Virus record (IMG/VR): IMGVR_UViG_3300048838_001845 | Location: 1-34,518 of that record | DNA length: 34,518 nucleotides | DNA from: a virus | Strand: one strand, 5' to 3' | Shown here: piece after piece, positions 21,088 to 34,518 of the stretch | Numbering within the stretch: the stretch's first letter is position 1 | Layout of the letters: each line of letters begins with the position of its first letter | Made by a program: the position numbers and the translations under genes | Notes under the pieces: model-generated | Told to the model about the DNA's origin: nothing | Database searches by the model: none | What the model saw: the letters and a program-made list of their open reading frames with translations, nothing else

Positions 21088-21516
21088 TCAGCGCGGCGCG
21101 GGCTTCTTGCGCGGCTCGGTGTAGGTGAGGGGGCCGGCCGCGCCGGCCTTCCGGTCGCGGTTGCGCTTCGCCATCAGCCTCAGCAGATCGTTGATCGTGG
21201 TGATCGCCGTTTGGCGCTCGGCCTCGTCGGGGAATTCGGTGCGCAGGATGTGGGCCGTCTCCTCGACGTCGTTGTAATACGCTGCCTGCGGCTCCCTGAA
21301 GGTGGCCTCGATGCCGGCCTTCAGCAACGCCACGGCCAGGTCGATCTTTAGCGCGCCGGATAAGGCCAAGGCAAAATCCGCGCTCGGCTTCGCGCCCAGC
21401 TCCACCTTGCTCACCAGCGTCTGATCCACGCGCATGGCCTGCGCCAGCTCGCCCTGCGTCATGCCGCGCTTTATGCGCTCTTCGCGCACCCACTCGCCAA
21501 AATCATCTTGTGCCAC
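21088..21516 (-). CDS. XRE-family repressor
   Basis: 142 residues from GTG 21516; an earlier in-frame TTG (21576) would lie inside the divergent promoter and is rejected. Helix-turn-helix at about residues 10-45: VREERIKRGMTQGELAQAMR, then VDQTLVSKVELGAKPS, very typical of Xre/Cro folds. The C-terminal part is helical with a basic tail (MAKRNRDRKAG) and no LexA-like peptidase, so induction would not be by self-cleavage. Being the only leftward gene at the arm boundary, it is the likely lysogeny repressor. Confidence 0.82.
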   Translation of the reverse strand: MAQDDFGEWVREERIKRGMTQGELAQAMRVDQTLVSKVELGAKPSADFALALSGALKIDLAVALLKAGIEATFREPQAAYYNDVEETAHILRTEFPDEAERQTAITTINDLLRLMAKRNRDRKAGAAGPLTYTEPRKKPAPR

Positions 21517-21547
21517 GGATTCATATTGTAGGACTTTCGTCGTAATT

Positions 21548-21576
21548 CTTAAAATTGAACTGATTCCTATTGACAA
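21548..21576 (-). promoter_or_regulatory. Predicted repressor promoter
   Basis: -35 TTGTCA (21576-21571), 17-base spacer, -10 TTTAAG (21553-21548). Transcription would start near 21541, giving a leader of about 25 bases to GTG 21516 with no ribosome site. Confidence 0.5.
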
Positions 21577-23048: not shown

Positions 23049-23431
23049 CAACGCAACCAACACAACAACCCGCGCTCAGCACGCCGCTGATCGCCATCCC
23101 GTCACCGATCACGCCGAAGGTCGCCGAGATCTTCGACGCGCACGGCTGCCGCTTATGCCACATCAACGCCGGCATGGCCGCCGAGATGGTCGCGCTGATT
23201 AACTGCAGCGCCCAGGCCGTGCAGATGTGGGATGAGGCGATGGAGCGCCACGCCAAGGTCGACACGCTCGTCGCCGCGCTGAAGAAGCTCAGCGCCTTCG
23301 TGTATCGCCTCAACCGCGACGAGAAGTGGATCACCGAAGAGCATCTCATCAACGCCGCCGCCGATGGCGAGGAGGCCGTGCGCCTCATCGATCCGGCATG
23401 GACCGTCTACATGGAGGCGCGCAATGGCTAA
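23045..23431 (+). CDS. Hypothetical early protein
   Basis: 128 residues. After a proline-rich start (about 1-25), FDAHGCRLCHINAGMAAEMV holds a CxxC pair, and the rest is helical (AVQMWDEAMERHAKVDTLVA, then ALKKLSAFVYRLNRDEKWIT). It precedes the replication gene, overlapping it by 8 bases. Could be a replication or regulatory helper; not recognised. Confidence 0.6.
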   Translation: MTTQPTQQPALSTPLIAIPSPITPKVAEIFDAHGCRLCHINAGMAAEMVALINCSAQAVQMWDEAMERHAKVDTLVAALKKLSAFVYRLNRDEKWITEEHLINAAADGEEAVRLIDPAWTVYMEARNG

Positions 23432-24179
23432 TTTGTCGATGCCTTGGATCAAGCTCTACATAGACCTACTGGATGATCCAAAGATCGGCAAGCTGCCGCG
23501 CTCGGCGCGCCTGCGCTTCATCGAGTTGATGCTGCTGGCCGGCGAGTGCGACGCCGACGGCGAGCTTGTCATCGGAGGCAAGCCCATGACCACAACCGAC
23601 ATCGGATGGCGCCTGCGCGACACCGCCAAAAACATCGAAGCGGAGATCGCCGCGCTCGTCGACGCCGGCATTGTGACCATCCACGGCGACCGCATCTACG
23701 TGACCAACTTCTCCAAACGCCAGGGGCGCAGCCAGTCCGAAAAGCGCGAAGCGTGGCGAGAACGCAAGGCGAGAAAGCAGGGGGATTCACGCGGGAATCA
23801 CGCGGGAATCACGCGGGAATCACGCGGGAATCCCCCTACAGACAAAGACAAAGACAAAGAACAAGACAAAGAGAAAGACAAAGACAAAGACTTGTTTGCA
23901 TTGGAGGCGCGCGCGAGCGCTAAAGATCGCCTGGTCGATCTGTTCATCGGAGCCGGCCTGCGCGAGCGCGACGCCGGCACCTACGCGCAGCACATCGCCG
24001 CCACTGTCGACAGCGAGTCGCATATGCGACGCGTCGAGAATGCAATCAGGAGTCTCGTTTTAGGCCTCCGTGATCAGAAAACCGTGCGCAACCCCGCCGG
24101 CCTCGTGATCAGCACCCTGCGCGAATGGGAACTCATCCCCGAGAGCATGGAGCTGGTCGCCACGCTGAGGAACTCATGA
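23424..24179 (+). CDS. Replication initiator/replisome organiser-like protein
   Basis: 251 residues from ATG 23424. Residues 1-100 (WIKLYIDLLDDPKIGKLPRS, then ARLRFIELMLLAGECDADGE, ending YVTNFSKRQGRSQ) match the N-terminal winged-helix domain of phage replisome organisers/DnaD-like initiators. Residues 120-157 are a low-complexity linker whose DNA contains 11-bp iterons and GACAAA units; residues 158-251 form a helical C-terminal domain (DRLVDLFIGAGLRERDAGT). Lambda O has the same plan of DNA-binding head, origin-bearing linker and helicase-loading tail. No replicative helicase loader is evident next to it. Confidence 0.75.
   Translation: MANLSMPWIKLYIDLLDDPKIGKLPRSARLRFIELMLLAGECDADGELVIGGKPMTTTDIGWRLRDTAKNIEAEIAALVDAGIVTIHGDRIYVTNFSKRQGRSQSEKREAWRERKARKQGDSRGNHAGITRESRGNPPTDKDKDKEQDKEKDKDKDLFALEARASAKDRLVDLFIGAGLRERDAGTYAQHIAATVDSESHMRRVENAIRSLVLGLRDQKTVRNPAGLVISTLREWELIPESMELVATLRNS
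23780..23888 (+). other. Candidate phage replication origin inside the initiator gene
   Basis: Four perfect tandem 11-bp units (23788-23831) are framed by GGGGGATT (23780-23787) and its complement AATCCCCC (23829-23836), then eight 6-base units of GACAAA type (23841-23888), which are purine-rich and A-rich. Iterons next to an easily melted tract within an initiator gene is the design of the lambda origin. Confidence 0.6.
23788..23831 (+). repeat. Four perfect 11-bp direct repeats (iterons)
   Basis: Unit CACGCGGGAAT at 23788, 23799, 23810 and 23821. The period is about one helical turn, putting each copy on the same DNA face. As 11 is not a multiple of three, successive copies encode different residues, so the repeat is kept for DNA rather than for protein. 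Confidence 0.9.
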
Positions 24180-25842: not shown

Positions 25843-26831
25843 TAACCGATCGATACGCGCTTTACAACGGCGACTGCCACGAAGTGATGGCGGAATTCCC
25901 CGACGAGTCGATCGGTCTGTCGGTGTATTCGCCGCCCTTCGGCGGGCTTTACAACTACTCATCAGACGAGCGTGATCTGAGCAACTGCAACGACTACGAC
26001 GAGTTTTTTGAGCACTACACCTTCACCGTGCGCGAGCTGCACCGCATCACGATGCCGGGCCGCATAACCGCCGTGCACTGTATGGACATCCCAAAGAGCA
26101 ACACCGGCAGCGATAGCTACATCGACTTCCCCGGCGACATCATCCGATTGCACGAGCGAGAAGGGTGGGCTTACTGTGGCCGGCATTGCATCTGGAAAGA
26201 ACCGCTCGCCGTGCGCAACCGCACCATGCAAAAGAACCTCGCGCACATGACGCTGGTGAACGATTCAACGAAGTGCGGCATGGCGAGCGCTGACTACCTG
26301 CTGATCTTCCGGCGCAGTGGAGACAACCCGGTGCCAGTGGCGCACCCCGTCGGCATGCTGGAGTATGCCGGCGAGCGTCAGATCCCCCGCGAGGTGATGC
26401 ACTTTCGCGGATGGGCAGGCAAGCAAACTGAGAACCGCTATTCGCACTGGATCTGGCGGCAGTATGCCTCATCCTTTTGGGATGACATCCGCATCGACCG
26501 CGTGCTGCCTTACAAGGCTGCGCGCGACAAAGACGATGAGAAGCACGTGCACCCGTTGCAGCTCGACGTGATCGACCGCGTGATCGTCCTGCGCAGCAAT
26601 CCAGGCGAGACCGTGCTTACCCCGTTCATGGGGGTCGGCAGCGAAGTCTATGGCGCAGTCCGGGCAGGCCGGCGCGGCATCGGCATCGAACTCAAGCCCA
26701 GCTACTACCGGCAGGCCGTGCGCAACGTGTTCGCAGCCGCCGGCGGCACGCTGGAGGCCGAGACGATCCCCATGCACCTGGACGAAGCCGGCAGCATGGA
26801 CGATCTTGAGGAGGCGATTCCGGCGCAATAA
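25821..26831 (+). CDS. DNA methyltransferase, beta class (adenine-N6 or cytosine-N4)
   Basis: 336 residues from ATG 25821, GAGGAG about nine bases upstream. The catalytic motif IV is YSPPFG (36-41), near the start; the SAM-binding motif I FMGVGS (269-274) with RRGIGIELKPSYYRQA is near the end, which is the beta-class order. SPPF can serve amino-methyltransferases acting on N4-cytosine or N6-adenine. No restriction endonuclease lies beside it, so it may be a lone phage methylase protecting DNA. Motif spacing is complete, so it should be active. Confidence 0.92.
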   Translation: MAVLDQVITDRYALYNGDCHEVMAEFPDESIGLSVYSPPFGGLYNYSSDERDLSNCNDYDEFFEHYTFTVRELHRITMPGRITAVHCMDIPKSNTGSDSYIDFPGDIIRLHEREGWAYCGRHCIWKEPLAVRNRTMQKNLAHMTLVNDSTKCGMASADYLLIFRRSGDNPVPVAHPVGMLEYAGERQIPREVMHFRGWAGKQTENRYSHWIWRQYASSFWDDIRIDRVLPYKAARDKDDEKHVHPLQLDVIDRVIVLRSNPGETVLTPFMGVGSEVYGAVRAGRRGIGIELKPSYYRQAVRNVFAAAGGTLEAETIPMHLDEAGSMDDLEEAIPAQ

Positions 26832-26946
26832 AAGCGCCGTCGCGACGCGACGATGCCGGCTCCTCGATCCTGCAGCACGCTGCTCTCTGTTTACTATGGA
26901 TCGCAGATCAGGGTGCAAGGGTGGCCGGCATCGTTAGTAAATCATC

Positions 26947-27270
26947 ATGAACAAGCTGCAGCAACTCATCGACCGCATCTTCTTCGCCGGCGAGATTGAA
27001 CGCCTCGCCGATGACAACCTCGCGCTGATCAAAGAGTGCGGCCGGCTCACCGCCGCGCTGCGCAAACTGAAGCGCGAGCCGGAGCTGGTTAGCACCCACA
27101 GCGCCATCATCCGCGTCGAAGAGAACACCGCCGGCGCATACGAGTGGAGCGCGAAGATGGGCGACGAGCTGATCGACCGAGGCCAGCGCAGCACCGCCGC
27201 CGACGCCAAACGCGACGCCGTGGCCGCTGTCATGGCCTACGTCGCCGAGCATGGAGGCACAAGCGCATGA
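26947..27270 (+). CDS. Hypothetical protein with coiled-coil start
   Basis: 107 residues. LQQLIDRIFFAGEIERLADD and LTAALRKLKRE form amphipathic helices (about 4-42), followed by a compact alpha/beta part (RVEENTAGAYEWSAKMGDEL to the end). 115 bases separate it from the methyltransferase, with a GTCGCGAC palindrome inside that gap and no clear promoter. Function unknown. Confidence 0.6.
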   Translation: MNKLQQLIDRIFFAGEIERLADDNLALIKECGRLTAALRKLKREPELVSTHSAIIRVEENTAGAYEWSAKMGDELIDRGQRSTAADAKRDAVAAVMAYVAEHGGTSA

Positions 27271-27623
27271 CCAAAGACGAGCTGATCAACCGCTACCTCT
27301 ACGGGCAGCGCCTCACGCGAGACGAGCGCAGCGCCCTGGCGAAGCAGCTCGGTGGCGCGCCGCAAGCCGCGCAGGCCATCAAGCTGGCGAAAGAAGCTGC
27401 ACGCGAAGCCTGCCACGACTGGCAGCCGGCCGTGCCGCGCGTGGGTTGGGTGGGTTATTGCTACGTCAAATACAAGCAGCTCTGGCGGGTGATCCGCGAT
27501 GGCGAGATCGTCATCGCCTACGAGACCGAAGGCGAAGCGCGCCACCACGCCGCGCTGCTCGCCGACGATGTGGATGCTGAATGGATCGGCAAGATCGCCG
27601 ACCCGCACGCAAAAAGCGCGTGA
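27267..27623 (+). CDS. Hypothetical protein
   Basis: 118 residues from ATG 27267, ATGA overlap with the preceding gene. Helical first half (DELINRYLYGQRLTRDERSA, then helical AAQAIKLAKEAAREAC), then a small beta region (GWVGYCYVKYKQLWRVIRDG with EIVIAYETEGEARHHA). Not recognised. Its stop codon forms the first of the repeated TGAAACA units of the following control region. Confidence 0.6.
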   Translation: MTKDELINRYLYGQRLTRDERSALAKQLGGAPQAAQAIKLAKEAAREACHDWQPAVPRVGWVGYCYVKYKQLWRVIRDGEIVIAYETEGEARHHAALLADDVDAEWIGKIADPHAKSA

Positions 27624-27685
27624 AACAAAGTTGATGTTTCACGAAATGAAACACGTCAAACGTGAAACAACAGGGGAGTGAAACA
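27620..27685. promoter_or_regulatory. Array of parS-like half sites (TGAAACA)
   Basis: TGAAACA occurs at 27621, 27647, 27663 and 27679, and its complement at 27635. Three of the direct copies are GTGAAACA, one half of the parS consensus. Last three direct copies are spaced by 16 bases. Two overlapping perfect dyads can form: 27620-27642 (8-bp arms) and 27635-27653 (7-bp arms). It stands just before the ribosome site of the membrane gene at 27687. Confidence 0.8.
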
Positions 27686-27686
27686 C

Positions 27687-28100
27687 ATGACCAACATCAG
27701 CAAAACCGCCGCCGCCGGCATCATCTTCTTCAGCATCGTGCTGGCCGGCTTCGTCGGCATCAAAGTCGATCAAACCACCGTCGCGCTGCTCGGCGGCGCA
27801 TTCATCGGCCTAGTCGTTGCGATCCCGACCACCGCGCTCATCTTGATCATGGGGCTGAAGCCGCGCAACACAGAACAGGGGCAGGTGCACATGCCGCCCC
27901 AGACGCCGGCGCAAACACACACGCACTACCACACGCACAACAACAACACGATGACCATTTACGTGAGCCGGCGCGGCTTGTCGCCATTCGATCAATGCAC
28001 CGAGGTGGCGCGCACGCTGCAGGTGAGCCGGCACATGGCTGAGCGTTTGATGCAGGCGGGGGATGTGAAGCTCATCGAGCCGCCGCAGGGGATTAATTGA
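27687..28100 (+). CDS. Two-span membrane protein with His-rich linker and soluble C terminus
   Basis: 137 residues from ATG 27687, GGGGAG eight bases upstream (a GTG at 27678 is less likely). Spans at about 9-27 and 31-56, a linker with THTHYHTHNNN (77-87), and a C-terminal part (ARTLQVSRHMAERLMQAGDV) resembling a small helix-turn-helix. First gene of four consecutive membrane proteins. A membrane-tethered regulator or sensor is possible; not recognised. Confidence 0.65.
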   Translation: MTNISKTAAAGIIFFSIVLAGFVGIKVDQTTVALLGGAFIGLVVAIPTTALILIMGLKPRNTEQGQVHMPPQTPAQTHTHYHTHNNNTMTIYVSRRGLSPFDQCTEVARTLQVSRHMAERLMQAGDVKLIEPPQGIN

Positions 28101-28101
28101 G

Positions 28102-28512
28102 ATGAACAAAAACAGGATGCCTGAAGAGCCCATGCTGGAAGGCAAGCCGGCGAGCGCGTGGGGGTGGTTTCTCGCCGGCTTCGCCTGGCTGGTGCTGGTT
28201 GCCATCGTCGTGGTGCCGGCAGCATTCAGAAACGACTCGCAGATCGACAAGATCATCGCCGCGCTCGATGCCGCAGGCGTCGACCGGGCGGCCGCCGTGC
28301 TTGTCATGTGGGCGCTGGCGCTCGCGCCGTTCATGGTCGCGCTGGATCGCGCTGTGAACATCAAGCACCGCTACCGCAAAGAGCGCGGCATGGTCACGCA
28401 GGAAGAGCAGGCAAACCACGACAAAGGGAACTTTTACAAGACGCTGCTGATCGTGGGGCTCCCGCTTGCGATCATCGCCATGGTTTATCTGCAGGCCGCC
28501 GGGGGCAAATAA
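28102..28512 (+). CDS. Three-span membrane protein
   Basis: 136 residues. Hydrophobic helices at about 20-42 (WFLAGFAWLVLVAIVVVPAA), 63-83 (RAAAVLVMWALALAPFMVAL) and 114-132 (TLLIVGLPLAIIAMVYL) with a basic loop (RAVNIKHRYRKERG). No known family visible. It starts one base after the stop of the previous gene and probably acts with the neighbouring membrane proteins. Confidence 0.65.
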   Translation: MNKNRMPEEPMLEGKPASAWGWFLAGFAWLVLVAIVVVPAAFRNDSQIDKIIAALDAAGVDRAAAVLVMWALALAPFMVALDRAVNIKHRYRKERGMVTQEEQANHDKGNFYKTLLIVGLPLAIIAMVYLQAAGGK

Positions 28513-28525
28513 GGCAAACAACATC

Positions 28526-28963
28526 ATGAGGTGCATCGTGGCAACAATCATCAGCGTGTTAATGGTGGCAGCGCCGGCACCGGCAATGGCGCAGACCCTC
28601 ACACCCCAGGACGCCCGCGCAACGCTCACCATGGCGCGCGCGCAGGCCACCGCGGCCAGCGACCTGGCCACAGCCAACGCGCCGACCGCCACGATGCCAC
28701 CGACCAGCACGCCCTGGCCGCCATCGGCCACGCCGGCGCCAACGGCCACATCGACCAGCACGCCGACGCCATCGCCAACGATGAGCAGCACGCCACAGCC
28801 GACAGCGACGCCGGCCGCAACGCCAGCACCCACGTCGCGCCCGCGCACCTTCATGGATGACATCCCGATCATCATCCTGCTGGCCGCGCTGCTCATCGCC
28901 GGGCTGATCGGCGCCTACGCCATCACCGCGTGGAGACGCGAAAGGATCGAGCCAAATGAATGA
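28526..28963 (+). CDS. Exported type I-like membrane protein with Pro/Thr-rich stalk
   Basis: 145 residues from ATG 28526. Signal peptide (MRCIVATIISVLMVAAPAPA, with the AMA site near residue 22), a short helical part (25-50), a stalk of repeated Pro-Thr/Ala-Thr steps (52-106), then a span (about 112-134, IPIIILLAALLIAGLIGAYA) and a basic tail (RRERIEPNE). The topology, an outer stalk held by one C-terminal helix, is unusual in phages and suggests a cell-surface product. The DNA is low-complexity. No sortase motif. Confidence 0.65.
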   Translation: MRCIVATIISVLMVAAPAPAMAQTLTPQDARATLTMARAQATAASDLATANAPTATMPPTSTPWPPSATPAPTATSTSTPTPSPTMSSTPQPTATPAATPAPTSRPRTFMDDIPIIILLAALLIAGLIGAYAITAWRRERIEPNE

Positions 28964-29843
28964 GATCGAGACCATCCACAAGCACAGCCGCGACATCGCG
29001 CTGAAGGTGGGCGTTTTTGGCGCGATCACCACGCTGGCCGTCACGCTGGCCGTCGGTTTTCTCTTTGCCGATGTCGACGATGCGCTCGCCCGCAAGGCGC
29101 ACTGGATCGTCTTCATGCTCGGCGTGCTGATCACATCCACCACCGCCATCGCGGTGCTGCTCAACGACAACGAGCAGCACCACTACCGGCGCAACCTGCA
29201 GGCCGAGTCGCGCAAGGCAAACGACGACGCCGACGCTGAGCTGAAGCGCACCCGCGCCAAGCTCGCCGAGGCGCGCATCGAATACATCAACGAGCAGCGC
29301 CGCGTGATCGGCCGGCCCATCGGCGCGCGCGTGTATGAGCGCCCCGCGCTGCCCGCCGCATCGAGCGCGACCGTTTACACCAACGGCCAGCGCAACGACG
29401 ATTCGATGGCCGATGAAGAAGCGCTGCCGGTCGAAGCCGAGATGGAGATGCCAGGCGATGACGATGAAGGCGACGACGTGGCCGGCGAGACCGCCGCCGA
29501 CGTGCAGACCACCGCCACCGGGCAGGTGATCGTCACCGAGTCCATGGCCGAGCGCCAGGTGCGCATCTACACCCTGGCACAGCGCATCTACGAGATCTGC
29601 CGCGACTGCGACCCGCTCACCCAGGACGCCATCAAGCGGCGCATCCCGATGAAGGCTGGCGGGTTGCTGCGCAGCAACCAGGACATCACCGACGCGCTCG
29701 ACCTCATGGCCGATCGCAACCTCGTCACCCCGTCGATGGGGAAGGGGATCGCGCGCCGGTGGACGACGGCCGTGCAGGCAGAGCAGGCGAGGCGCGCCGG
29801 CGGGCAGGGCACGCGTGCGCGCACGCAAGGAGCAGGGCAATGA
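28956..29843 (+). CDS. Membrane protein with coiled coil and winged-helix-like C terminus
   Basis: 295 residues, overlapping the stalk gene by 8 bases. Spans at about 18-38 (VGVFGAITTLAVTLAVGFLF) and 50-68, a coiled coil (70-118, AESRKANDDADAELKRTRAK), an acidic spacer (about 148-175), then ESMAERQVRIYTLAQRIYEI to RRIPMKAGGLLRSNQDITDA, which looks like a winged helix domain. It could couple membrane and nucleic acid. No family recognised. Confidence 0.65.
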   Translation: MNEIETIHKHSRDIALKVGVFGAITTLAVTLAVGFLFADVDDALARKAHWIVFMLGVLITSTTAIAVLLNDNEQHHYRRNLQAESRKANDDADAELKRTRAKLAEARIEYINEQRRVIGRPIGARVYERPALPAASSATVYTNGQRNDDSMADEEALPVEAEMEMPGDDDEGDDVAGETAADVQTTATGQVIVTESMAERQVRIYTLAQRIYEICRDCDPLTQDAIKRRIPMKAGGLLRSNQDITDALDLMADRNLVTPSMGKGIARRWTTAVQAEQARRAGGQGTRARTQGAGQ

Positions 29844-30461: not shown

Positions 30462-30767
30462 ATGCTAGAAATCATTTTGAGAGAAATCATCGCCGGCACA
30501 CGGCCAACGCCATATCACATGACCAACGGTGCGCGGCTCGACTGGGACGCCGGCGCGCAGCAGCTCACCGTCACGCGCATCAACCGCTCGCCCGGCGAGC
30601 GCGAGATAGCCATTTTCAAGGCCTACCTCAAGCGTATCGGCTACCGCGCCAGCACCAGCACGCCCGTGGAGATCGCGCCCGGGTTGAATAGCTGGATCGG
30701 GCAGCGACTGCAACTCGTGAAGATCGAGCAGCCGGCGCCGGCCGCCAGCCAGGGGAGCTTGTTCTGA
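30462..30767 (+). CDS. Hypothetical protein
   Basis: 101 residues from ATG 30462 with GGGG upstream. Compact alpha/beta protein (LEIILREIIAGTRPTPYHMT, then LTVTRINRSPGEREIAIFKA) ending in an alanine/proline tail and GSLF. Its stop overlaps the next ATG by one base. Not recognised. Confidence 0.6.
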   Translation: MLEIILREIIAGTRPTPYHMTNGARLDWDAGAQQLTVTRINRSPGEREIAIFKAYLKRIGYRASTSTPVEIAPGLNSWIGQRLQLVKIEQPAPAASQGSLF

Positions 30768-31037: not shown

Positions 31038-31997
31038 ATGAGCAAAGAACTCGTTACCACCAGCCCAAAGGCCGACTACCAGGCCGCGACCGCTTATCTG
31101 ATGTCTCTCAGCACCACCGGGCGCAGCAGCATGGAGTCGACGTTGCGGCTGGTGGCGCGCATCATGGGCGCCGAGGATTACACGCAAGTGAACTGGGCAT
31201 CGCTCAACGCCGCAAACGTGCAGGCGCTCGTCGCCAAAATCCGCGACACCCCCACTGAGCGAGGATCGGCCAGATCGCCCAATAGCGTCGCCACCGTCCT
31301 CAACGCCCTCAAAGGCGTGGCCAAGGCCGCCTGGCGACGCAACACGCTCGCCACCGACGCATGGGAGCGCATCCGCGACCTGAAAGCCCCGCGTGGCTCA
31401 CGCCTGCCGGCTGGCCGCGACATCGCGCCCATCGAGCGCGCCGTGCTCATCTCCGCCGCCGTCGAAGATCCACGCATCGCCGGCATCCGCGACGCTGCCA
31501 TCATGGCCGTGCTGATGGCCACCGGCATGCGCCGCGCCGAGCTGGTCGCGCTGGCCCTCGAAGATGTGGAGATGAGCACCGGCAAAATCACCATCATCGG
31601 CAAGGGCGACAAAGAGCGCACCGCCTACATCGCCGACGAGCCGATGCAGGCCGTGCGCGACTGGCTGCAGGTGCGCGGCATGAATGAAGGGCCGCTCTTT
31701 TGCGCGATCACCAAAACCGGCAAATTGCAACGCGACCGGCACATGAGCCCGACCGCGCTGCACTACATCATCCAGCGCCGCGTGACCAGCGCCGGCCTTA
31801 GCAAGATGACCGCGCACGACTTCCGCCGCACGCTCGCCGGCGATCTGCTCGATGAGAACATCGACATCGCCACCGTCGGCGAGCTGCTCGGCCACTCCGA
31901 CCCGAAGACCACCAAACGCTACGACCGCCGTGGCGAGCGAGCGAAGAAGCGCGCCGCCACGCACGTGCACGTGCCCTACAAGCGAGGCAATTCATGA
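31038..31997 (+). CDS. Tyrosine recombinase/integrase
   Basis: 319 residues. N-terminal SAM-like core-binding domain (about 10-110), then catalytic domain: ATGMRRAEL (Arg165), GKGDKER (Lys about 189-192), TAHDFRR (His260, Arg263), LLGHSDPKTTKRY (His286, Tyr295). All catalytic residues are present. Similar in size and layout to XerC/XerD. It would integrate or excise the element or resolve multimers. It follows an AT-rich leader with TTTAAG/CTTAAA and overlaps the next gene by 4 bases. Confidence 0.94.
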   Translation: MSKELVTTSPKADYQAATAYLMSLSTTGRSSMESTLRLVARIMGAEDYTQVNWASLNAANVQALVAKIRDTPTERGSARSPNSVATVLNALKGVAKAAWRRNTLATDAWERIRDLKAPRGSRLPAGRDIAPIERAVLISAAVEDPRIAGIRDAAIMAVLMATGMRRAELVALALEDVEMSTGKITIIGKGDKERTAYIADEPMQAVRDWLQVRGMNEGPLFCAITKTGKLQRDRHMSPTALHYIIQRRVTSAGLSKMTAHDFRRTLAGDLLDENIDIATVGELLGHSDPKTTKRYDRRGERAKKRAATHVHVPYKRGNS

Positions 31998-32816: not shown

Positions 32817-33001
32817 CCACCCTGCCCCACCCCGCGCCGGCCCCTGATCGCGCCGACTTGCGCATCGTGCAGCACCCTGCACAATATGTTGCACCGATCA
32901 ACCTGAACGATCCACATGCGCGTGGATTCATCGCCGCTATCGCCGAAGGCCTGAAGCAATGCAACCAGACACCCAGCAACAACACAGGGCGACCGTCCTG
33001 A
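32813..33001 (+). CDS. Small protein upstream of serine recombinase
   Basis: 62 residues from ATG 32813; its end overlaps the recombinase start by 43 bases, suggesting coupling. Proline-rich start, then RIVQHPAQYVAPINLNDPHA. It might control the recombinase; not recognised, and too small for a confident call. Confidence 0.5.
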   Translation: MTTLPHPAPAPDRADLRIVQHPAQYVAPINLNDPHARGFIAAIAEGLKQCNQTPSNNTGRPS

Positions 33002-34518
33002 TTTACGCCCGCCGCTCGAAGGTCATCAACGAGAGCGACCGTTTCAACGTCGACGGCCAGCTCGCCGCGCTGCGCGCCGAATGCACCAAGCGCGGCTACG
33101 ACCTGCCGCCCTTCCGCATCGAGGAATACATCGACGCGCAAGGGCATCGCAGCGGCCGGCACGAGCACACCCGCCCCGAATGGCTGAAGCTGCGCGCCAG
33201 GCTGAACGCGCCCGACGTGCTCGCCGTCATGTTCTACACCATCGACCGCGCCAGCAGATCCGTGCGCGACTTCGCCGACCTGATCGAGGTGTGCAAGACG
33301 CTGAACGTCGGCATCATCTCCATCATCGATGGCGTGGATACGCTCGCCGGCGTGGGCCGCCGCCACCTCGACCTTCACCTGCGCGCCATGATCGCGCAGG
33401 ATGAATCAGACCTTGCCAGCGAGCGCATGACGCGCCGCATCATGCTGAAGCGCCAGGCTGGTATCCCGCACGGCACCCCACCCTTCGGCACCCGCTACGC
33501 CGGCCAGGGCGCGGCCATGCGCCGCGTCGCCAATGAGCACGCGCCGACCGTCGTGCAGCTCATGCAGTGGTATACCGAAGGCATCAGCAACCGCGCCGTG
33601 ATGCACCGCGCCAATGCTGCCGGCCTGCTCCACGTCGACCGCCACGGCCGGCTGGAGCCGTTCAGGCTCGGCGCCGTGCAAACCATCATCAGCAACGTGC
33701 TGGCCTATGCCGGCTACCTGCAGCACGGGCCGCACACCAAGCGAGACAAGGTGCAGCTCGCCGGCGAAGGCGCGCTCGTCGACCGCTACGCCCGCGCCGT
33801 GGGTGCGGTGCGCTCGCCGGCCATCGAGCCGATCATTTCCATGGAAATGGCCGAGGCCGTCATCGAGCGCAAGCTGGGACGTCAGCGCACAGGCCGGCCG
33901 GCGCGCTCGCTCGCGCTGCTCACGCATGCGCTGTGGCACGAAGGGCGAAGGGTGTATAGCGCCGCGCGGCATGGCGGCCGCTATCGGTTGCACGGCCGTG
34001 GCTCTGAATCCTGGCCGATCGCGCACGTTGACAGCCAACTGCTCGACCAGCTCGCCGGCCTGCGCTTCAGCGACGCGCTACAGGCCGCCATTGTGGCGCA
34101 CGTGATGGATCACACCCGCGACGATGAACGCGACGCGCTGCGCGCACGCCAGCGCGACTACGAGGCACGTTTACAGCGCGTGCAGGATATGTATGAAACG
34201 GGGATGCTCAGCCGCGCCGATTTTCAATCGCGTTTCATGGCCATCGATGGCGTGCTGAGCGAGACGCGCCGGCTGCTCCTCGCGCCGTCGCAGATCGACA
34301 CCGTGTTGCAGCAGCTCCGGATTCTCGCCGAGACGCTGCACCTCATCCCGCACGAGCAGCGCCGGCGCGCTTTGTATCACCTCATCGAGCGCGTCGACAT
34401 CGACGCCGGCGGCATCATCACCCGCGTGCAGTTGCGGGAATGGGCACGGGCCGCATTCCATCAAACGATAGAAGCGGCCCGTGTTCTGAGGCTAAACGAT
34501 GCCCTGGACAGGATTTGA
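32959..34518 (+). CDS. Large serine recombinase (integrase)
   Basis: 519 residues; stop is the last codon of the window. Catalytic domain: YARRSK (Ser20), YTIDRASRSVRDFADLIE (DRxSR, Arg97 and Arg100), DESDLASERM helix; then the recombinase domain (about 165-300, IPHGTPPFGTRY) and a coiled coil (about 385-440, RDYEARLQRVQDMYETGMLS). Where a zinc ribbon with four Cys is normal (about 320-350), it has LLTHALWHEGRR and no Cys at all; Cys occur only at 42 and 112. ATG 32959 has GAAGG nine bases upstream. Confidence 0.93.
   Translation: MQPDTQQQHRATVLIYARRSKVINESDRFNVDGQLAALRAECTKRGYDLPPFRIEEYIDAQGHRSGRHEHTRPEWLKLRARLNAPDVLAVMFYTIDRASRSVRDFADLIEVCKTLNVGIISIIDGVDTLAGVGRRHLDLHLRAMIAQDESDLASERMTRRIMLKRQAGIPHGTPPFGTRYAGQGAAMRRVANEHAPTVVQLMQWYTEGISNRAVMHRANAAGLLHVDRHGRLEPFRLGAVQTIISNVLAYAGYLQHGPHTKRDKVQLAGEGALVDRYARAVGAVRSPAIEPIISMEMAEAVIERKLGRQRTGRPARSLALLTHALWHEGRRVYSAARHGGRYRLHGRGSESWPIAHVDSQLLDQLAGLRFSDALQAAIVAHVMDHTRDDERDALRARQRDYEARLQRVQDMYETGMLSRADFQSRFMAIDGVLSETRRLLLAPSQIDTVLQQLRILAETLHLIPHEQRRRALYHLIERVDIDAGGIITRVQLREWARAAFHQTIEAARVLRLNDALDRI

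Follow-up and report, generated by a model that had tools for sequence, protein, structure and literature searches.

Five copies of a half-parS word in front of a phage membrane-protein operon: a candidate operator

Here, we describe an array of five copies of an 8-bp word, four direct and one inverted, in front of a putative membrane-protein operon of IMG/VR virus record IMGVR_UViG_3300048838_001845 (34,518 bases, one strand; this whole stretch is the window in what follows). The array lies in an intergenic gap, is not a product of chance, and keeps only the 8-bp word while its spacers differ. We consider it about an even call that the array is an operator for a sequence-specific DNA-binding regulator of the membrane operon, encoded by either the phage or its host; from this arrangement we infer both protein binding to the array and a regulatory effect. 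Binding-site arrays with several copies are already known to precede operons, and this array would be one more of them.

The array and its setting

Judged by gene content, the window reads as a tailed temperate phage. Its genes include a helicase, an N6/N4 DNA methylase and a terminase whose relatives number in the thousands, together with the following.

21088-21576: phage repressor (HTH_3)
23424-24176: replisome organiser
31038-31994: tyrosine integrase
32959-34518: large serine recombinase that continues past the right end of the window

A tyrosine integrase and a large serine recombinase thus occur together in a single phage record. The array and its neighbours are arranged as follows.

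27267-27623, plus strand: upstream ORF, 118 aa, without family match
27620-27627, plus strand: F1, direct copy, GTGAAACA, whose TGA serves as stop codon for the upstream ORF
27635-27642, minus strand: R, inverted copy, TGTTTCAC on the plus strand
27646-27653, plus strand: F2, direct copy, ATGAAACA
27662-27669, plus strand: F3, direct copy, GTGAAACA, 16 bp past F2
27671-27677, plus strand: Shine-Dalgarno-like AGGGGAG for the ORF at 27687-28100, read from the sequence
27678-27685, plus strand: F4, direct copy, GTGAAACA, 16 bp past F3, between the Shine-Dalgarno-like sequence and the ATG at 27687
27687-28100, plus strand: first ORF past the array, 137 aa, predicted to form two long helices that look membrane-like in sequence, with an HTH-like tail at the C-terminus
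28102-28512, plus strand: membrane-protein-like ORF, 136 aa, no family, hydrophobic stretches by eye
28526-28963, plus strand: ORF, 145 aa, by eye with a signal-like N-terminus, a Pro/Thr-rich stretch and a C-terminal hydrophobic segment
28956-29843, plus strand: ORF, 295 aa, by eye only with a hydrophobic N-terminus and a winged-helix-like C-terminal stretch

As an earlier note on this DNA had described, four direct copies and one inverted copy of TGAAACA, three of them at 16-bp spacing, are present at 27620-27685, in the gap directly 5' of the ATG at 27687 and the membrane-protein genes. This gap measures 63 bp from the stop of the upstream ORF to that ATG. Both strands of the window together hold six TGAAACA (27621+, 27635-, 27647+, 27663+, 27679+ and 17126-), only the last of which lies outside the array. 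The longer word GTGAAACA is exact in four of the five copies, one of them inverted, and the fifth reads ATGAAACA. Successive direct copies are separated by 26 bp (F1 to F2) and twice by 16 bp (F2 to F3 and F3 to F4), corresponding to 2.48 and 1.52 helical turns. A 16-bp step turns each copy to the opposite side of the DNA from its neighbour, and a common face is shared by the first and third direct copies (4.0 turns) and by the second and fourth (3.05 turns). The 8-base spacers CGTCAAAC, ACAGGGGA and CATGACCA bear no resemblance to each other, which argues against a recent tandem duplication and makes the 8-bp word itself look selected. With a GC content of 0.39, the array falls into the lowest 0.7% of the window's 64-bp windows.

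Five copies within 70 bp make this the densest 7-mer cluster of the window. First-order Markov resampling of the window (n = 300) yielded at most four copies, with 0/300 reaching five, and four was likewise never exceeded when the surrounding 500 bp were resampled 5000 times or when the 66-bp array itself was Markov-resampled (20000 times) or mononucleotide-shuffled (20000 times); by these maxima, the five-copy array is not due to chance. As a natural control, another 7-mer reached five copies in one of 46 helicase-relative loci (L126), where it forms, by eye, a head-to-tail run within an apparent replication-protein linker. That the array is a neutral relic or a functionless chance cluster, as the failure to find it in any of the 75 viral relative contigs might suggest, is highly improbable given the resampling maxima below five and the unrelated spacers, which are contrary to recent duplication.

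Relatives were sampled through the helicase (42 viral and 4 bacterial contigs) and the terminase (33 viral contigs). None of these 75 viral and 4 bacterial contigs, many of which are fragments that perhaps do not reach the locus, yielded the array or an operon protein, and searches of the whole records for 33 of the contigs returned no match for either. The nearest relative, L120, shares 83% DNA identity with the window up to 26860, matches it again at 30546-30644, and carries other genes between the equivalents of 26860 and 30546. As judged from this comparison, the array and operon belong to a segment, about 3.6 kb long, that is variable. Absence from close relatives had been proposed beforehand as evidence against a function; the array is indeed absent from the relatives found, but the operon is missing too, so that the result is not decisive and carries no weight against a local role. 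Other 7-mers cluster at a comparable distance past the helicase in L126, L164 and L162; as positional equivalents of the array these were rejected, being by eye repeats inside replication-protein coding sequence.

A candidate operator and its putative regulator

In the mechanism that we favour, five 8-bp recognition words filling the 63-bp gap would be bound by a sequence-specific protein, which would control transcription of the membrane operon, or its translation via the F4 copy beside the ribosome site. The product of the first operon gene could itself be this protein, a membrane-bound autoregulator binding through a tail predicted as helix-turn-helix plus strand; this is the most economical guess. 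The operator reading is favoured by the five copies, matched in density by 0/300 window and 0/45000 local resamples, by the low GC and the exactly intergenic position adjoining the ribosome site, by the unrelated spacers, and by the modelled tail of the adjacent protein with its weak HTH_17 and low-ranked BldC/Xis matches. It is weakened by an HTH_17 match far below the cut-off and by fold matches that are not significant, and the absence of any promoter-like site in 26700-28200 also counts against it, as do a step longer than that of BldC-type repeats and the lack of the array in every relative found.

A single-sequence model of the 27687-28100 protein has long helices at residues 4-24 and 29-56, followed by a helix-helix-strand tail. 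Modelled alone, the tail folds as strand-helix-helix-strand (mean pLDDT 85.6, pTM 0.67). Its match to HTH_17 (E 0.2) scores 12.4 bits against a cut-off of 27 bits. A fold search ranked BldC (6ama) and Pukovnik Xis (4j2n) low, with no match at E <= 0.001, and a second fold comparison placed HU proteins first (Z 3.1) and BldC at Z 2.1. These fold comparisons are weak, and together with the models they are no more than suggestive of an HTH-like fold. The products of 27687-28097 and 28956-29840 had no match in phage records, the operon proteins had no relatives among viral contigs, and searches of PHROG, Pfam and a defence library gave no convincing match for them, an outcome that excludes no family. 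A plasmid search returned one 94-bp Herpetosiphon match, which lies in the Pro/Thr-rich stretch and is too short to name a host.

BldC is reported to bind direct repeats of DNA head to tail, at a spacing of about 9 bp and with a different, AT-rich word (PMC5859096), and autoregulation is described for RdfS, which is related to BldC/Xis-type proteins (PMC11963761). The array resembles operators of such winged HTH proteins in being made of multi-copy direct repeats near the gene for an HTH-like protein. It differs in its step, which is 16 bp as against about 9-11 bp; neither its 16-bp steps (1.52 turns) nor the 26-bp one (2.48 turns) come near the one helical turn of this class. The adjacent protein is moreover no more than a candidate member of the BldC/Xis type. 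The phage repressor was considered as the regulator and is not favoured, because no TGAAACA occurs close to its promoter region.

As an operator, the array would offer a small, clean target for finding the regulator of an uncharacterised phage membrane operon, and if the adjacent membrane protein binds it, the phage would encode its own link between DNA and membrane. A further extension, in which the 27687-28100 protein is anchored in the membrane and its tail binds the array in front of its own gene, so that this array would regulate the operon and also tether the phage genome or lysogen locus to the membrane, we regard as very improbable.

RNA folding and host ParB

Of the alternatives to an operator, an RNA element survives best, and we still hold it to be unlikely. 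Here, R would base-pair in the mRNA with a direct copy, and the end of the upstream ORF within F1 would link its translation to that of the operon. The repeats form both of the alternative hairpins that the earlier note had mentioned.

27619-27643, no strand assigned: hairpin F1:R, 9 bp, loop 7
27632-27672 (arms 27632-27643 and 27661-27672), plus strand: alternative hairpin R:F3, favoured in the longer fold

The predicted folds beat shuffled sequences (z -4.86 for 161 nt, z -2.53 for 84 nt), and in the longer fold model R pairs with F3 at a mean probability of 0.93 and with F1 at 0.06. F1 also contains the upstream stop codon, and a ribosome-sized mask over 27606-27638 lifts the modelled unpaired fraction of the Shine-Dalgarno region from 0.41 to 0.70. 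Translational coupling of the upstream ORF to the operon is possible. Masking of R opens the ribosome site to 0.68 unpaired. The switch between hairpins that had been suggested, however, did not emerge from the models: masking F1 hardly alters access to the ribosome site (0.41 to 0.38), so hairpin exchange is not an evident switch, and access to the start codon stays at 0.35 in all four modelled states. Four direct copies would be unnecessary for an RNA switch, and an Rfam search found no family, only two chance matches below the gathering score. On the minus strand, the F1:R hairpin (27643-27619) is followed by CGCTTTTTGC and looks terminator-like; no minus-strand gene is evident there.

The resemblance to parS has a sound core, as the word GTGAAACA is exactly one half of parS. 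Searching for the half-parS heptamers GTTTCAC or GTTCCAC gives four exact matches in the array (27620, 27636, 27662 and 27678), and four of the window's six GTGAAAC/GTTTCAC heptamers sit there. The parS-like label itself did not hold in full: the 16-bp palindrome TGTTNCACGTGAAACA has no match in the window at up to two mismatches, and the sole pair in parS orientation, TGTTTCAC-GAA-ATGAAACA, has its halves 3 bp too far apart, an insertion. The array is therefore not a parS site. Three of its five copies are lone direct repeats, and the direct copies follow each other at 16- or 26-bp steps, in contrast to the parS arrangement of chromosomal ParB proteins. The earlier observation that no ParB gene is visible in the window is borne out by the ParB_N profile, which had no match at E <= 1 in this possibly incomplete record, leaving only a host ParB to serve.

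Capture of host ParB onto phage or prophage DNA by the clustered half-sites is, in our estimate, a little less probable than an RNA element. By analogy with other ParB proteins, binding of a host ParB to the half-sites is possible: one study reports that Pseudomonas aeruginosa ParB binds single half-parS heptamers (GTTTCAC) at hundreds of sites and, in a re-analysis of other ParBs, that five bind half-sites clearly, four weakly and nine not at all (PMC7022226). Such binding by the P. aeruginosa protein also features in a second study, which describes no dominant effect of it on nearby transcription (PMC10419367). Together with the four exact heptamers, these reports favour capture, whereas the nine ParBs without half-site binding weigh against it, as do the missing palindrome, the 3-bp insertion in the only correctly facing pair and the lack of a dominant effect on local transcription. 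If bound by ParB, the array is probably not a segregation site. With ParB bound there, the phage would be exploiting isolated half-parS words, which are not known to act in local control. Our literature searches on parS half-sites with ParB and spacing, and on parS sites with prophages and host ParB, found nothing, by which we do not claim absence from print.

True parS clusters do occur in other phage contigs, which lends the capture reading some support. At least two exact 16-bp parS palindromes (TGTTTCACGTGAAACA) per contig were seen in L281, L282, L284, L286, L288, L289, L291, L292, L294, L302, L309, L311 and L207, and ParB_N exceeded its cut-off in 0/20 array-bearing records, including 8 of these 13 contigs. 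For host-ParB capture, phages of this kind, bearing host-type parS clusters but lacking ParB, would make a better test case than the window. By eye, L284, L294 and L311 carry an apparent protein-primed (phi29-type) DNA polymerase.

Comparable arrays and replication iterons

Among the matches listed by scans of viral contigs for the TGAAACA pattern, coding repeats whose steps are multiples of 3 predominate. The 268 loci classified comprise 174 without a cluster of four, 58 that are coding, 6 with parS only and 30 non-coding arrays (27 once duplicates were removed). The F-R-F-F-F order of the window was found in none of the 34 F-R-F or 4 R-F-9-F matches listed, and the nearest arrangement is R-F-F-F-F in L312.

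At eight loci (L024, L073, L074, L079, L293, L296, L312 and L313), irregular non-coding TGAAACA/TGTTTCA arrays in unrelated phages lie beside VapE, DUF5906, AAA_25 or DnaB-type genes, and these arrays are possible iterons. Among the matches listed, a primase or replicative helicase, by name, thus flanks 8 of the 27 distinct non-coding arrays. Satellite phage P4 has iterons of the form GGTGAACA, and the array in the window is like these in its short words clustered in both orientations. That it is likewise a set of replication-origin iterons bound by a replication protein is about as doubtful as ParB capture, although it lies 0.8 kb past the organiser, helicase and methylase genes. Replication proteins make up 8 of 48 flanking proteins against at least 3 of 53 control proteins, the latter a lower bound drawn from the 25 families listed, and the difference is not significant (Fisher p 0.11). 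With L024/L073 and L079/L312 apparently of the same families, the link to replication genes is a hint only. Unlike P4-type iterons, the array is located at a ribosome site, and a primase-helicase of this kind is missing from the window, beside the array as elsewhere. Neither adjacent ORF matches a replication family, so no recognisable initiator stands beside the array; the organiser lies at 23424-24176.

A repeat cluster with units CGCGGGAATCA and GACAAAGA at 23787-23860, inside the replisome organiser gene, is a candidate origin, and the organiser's own repeats are the more usual place for one, which is a further point against iterons at the array. Two other arrays, L007:7532-7574 and L086:4113-4155, consist of four GTGAAACA words at 12-bp steps near a phage integrase gene; they may serve as arm sites of the integrase or, for L086, as operator of the neighbouring ORF, which encodes an HTH-like regulator.
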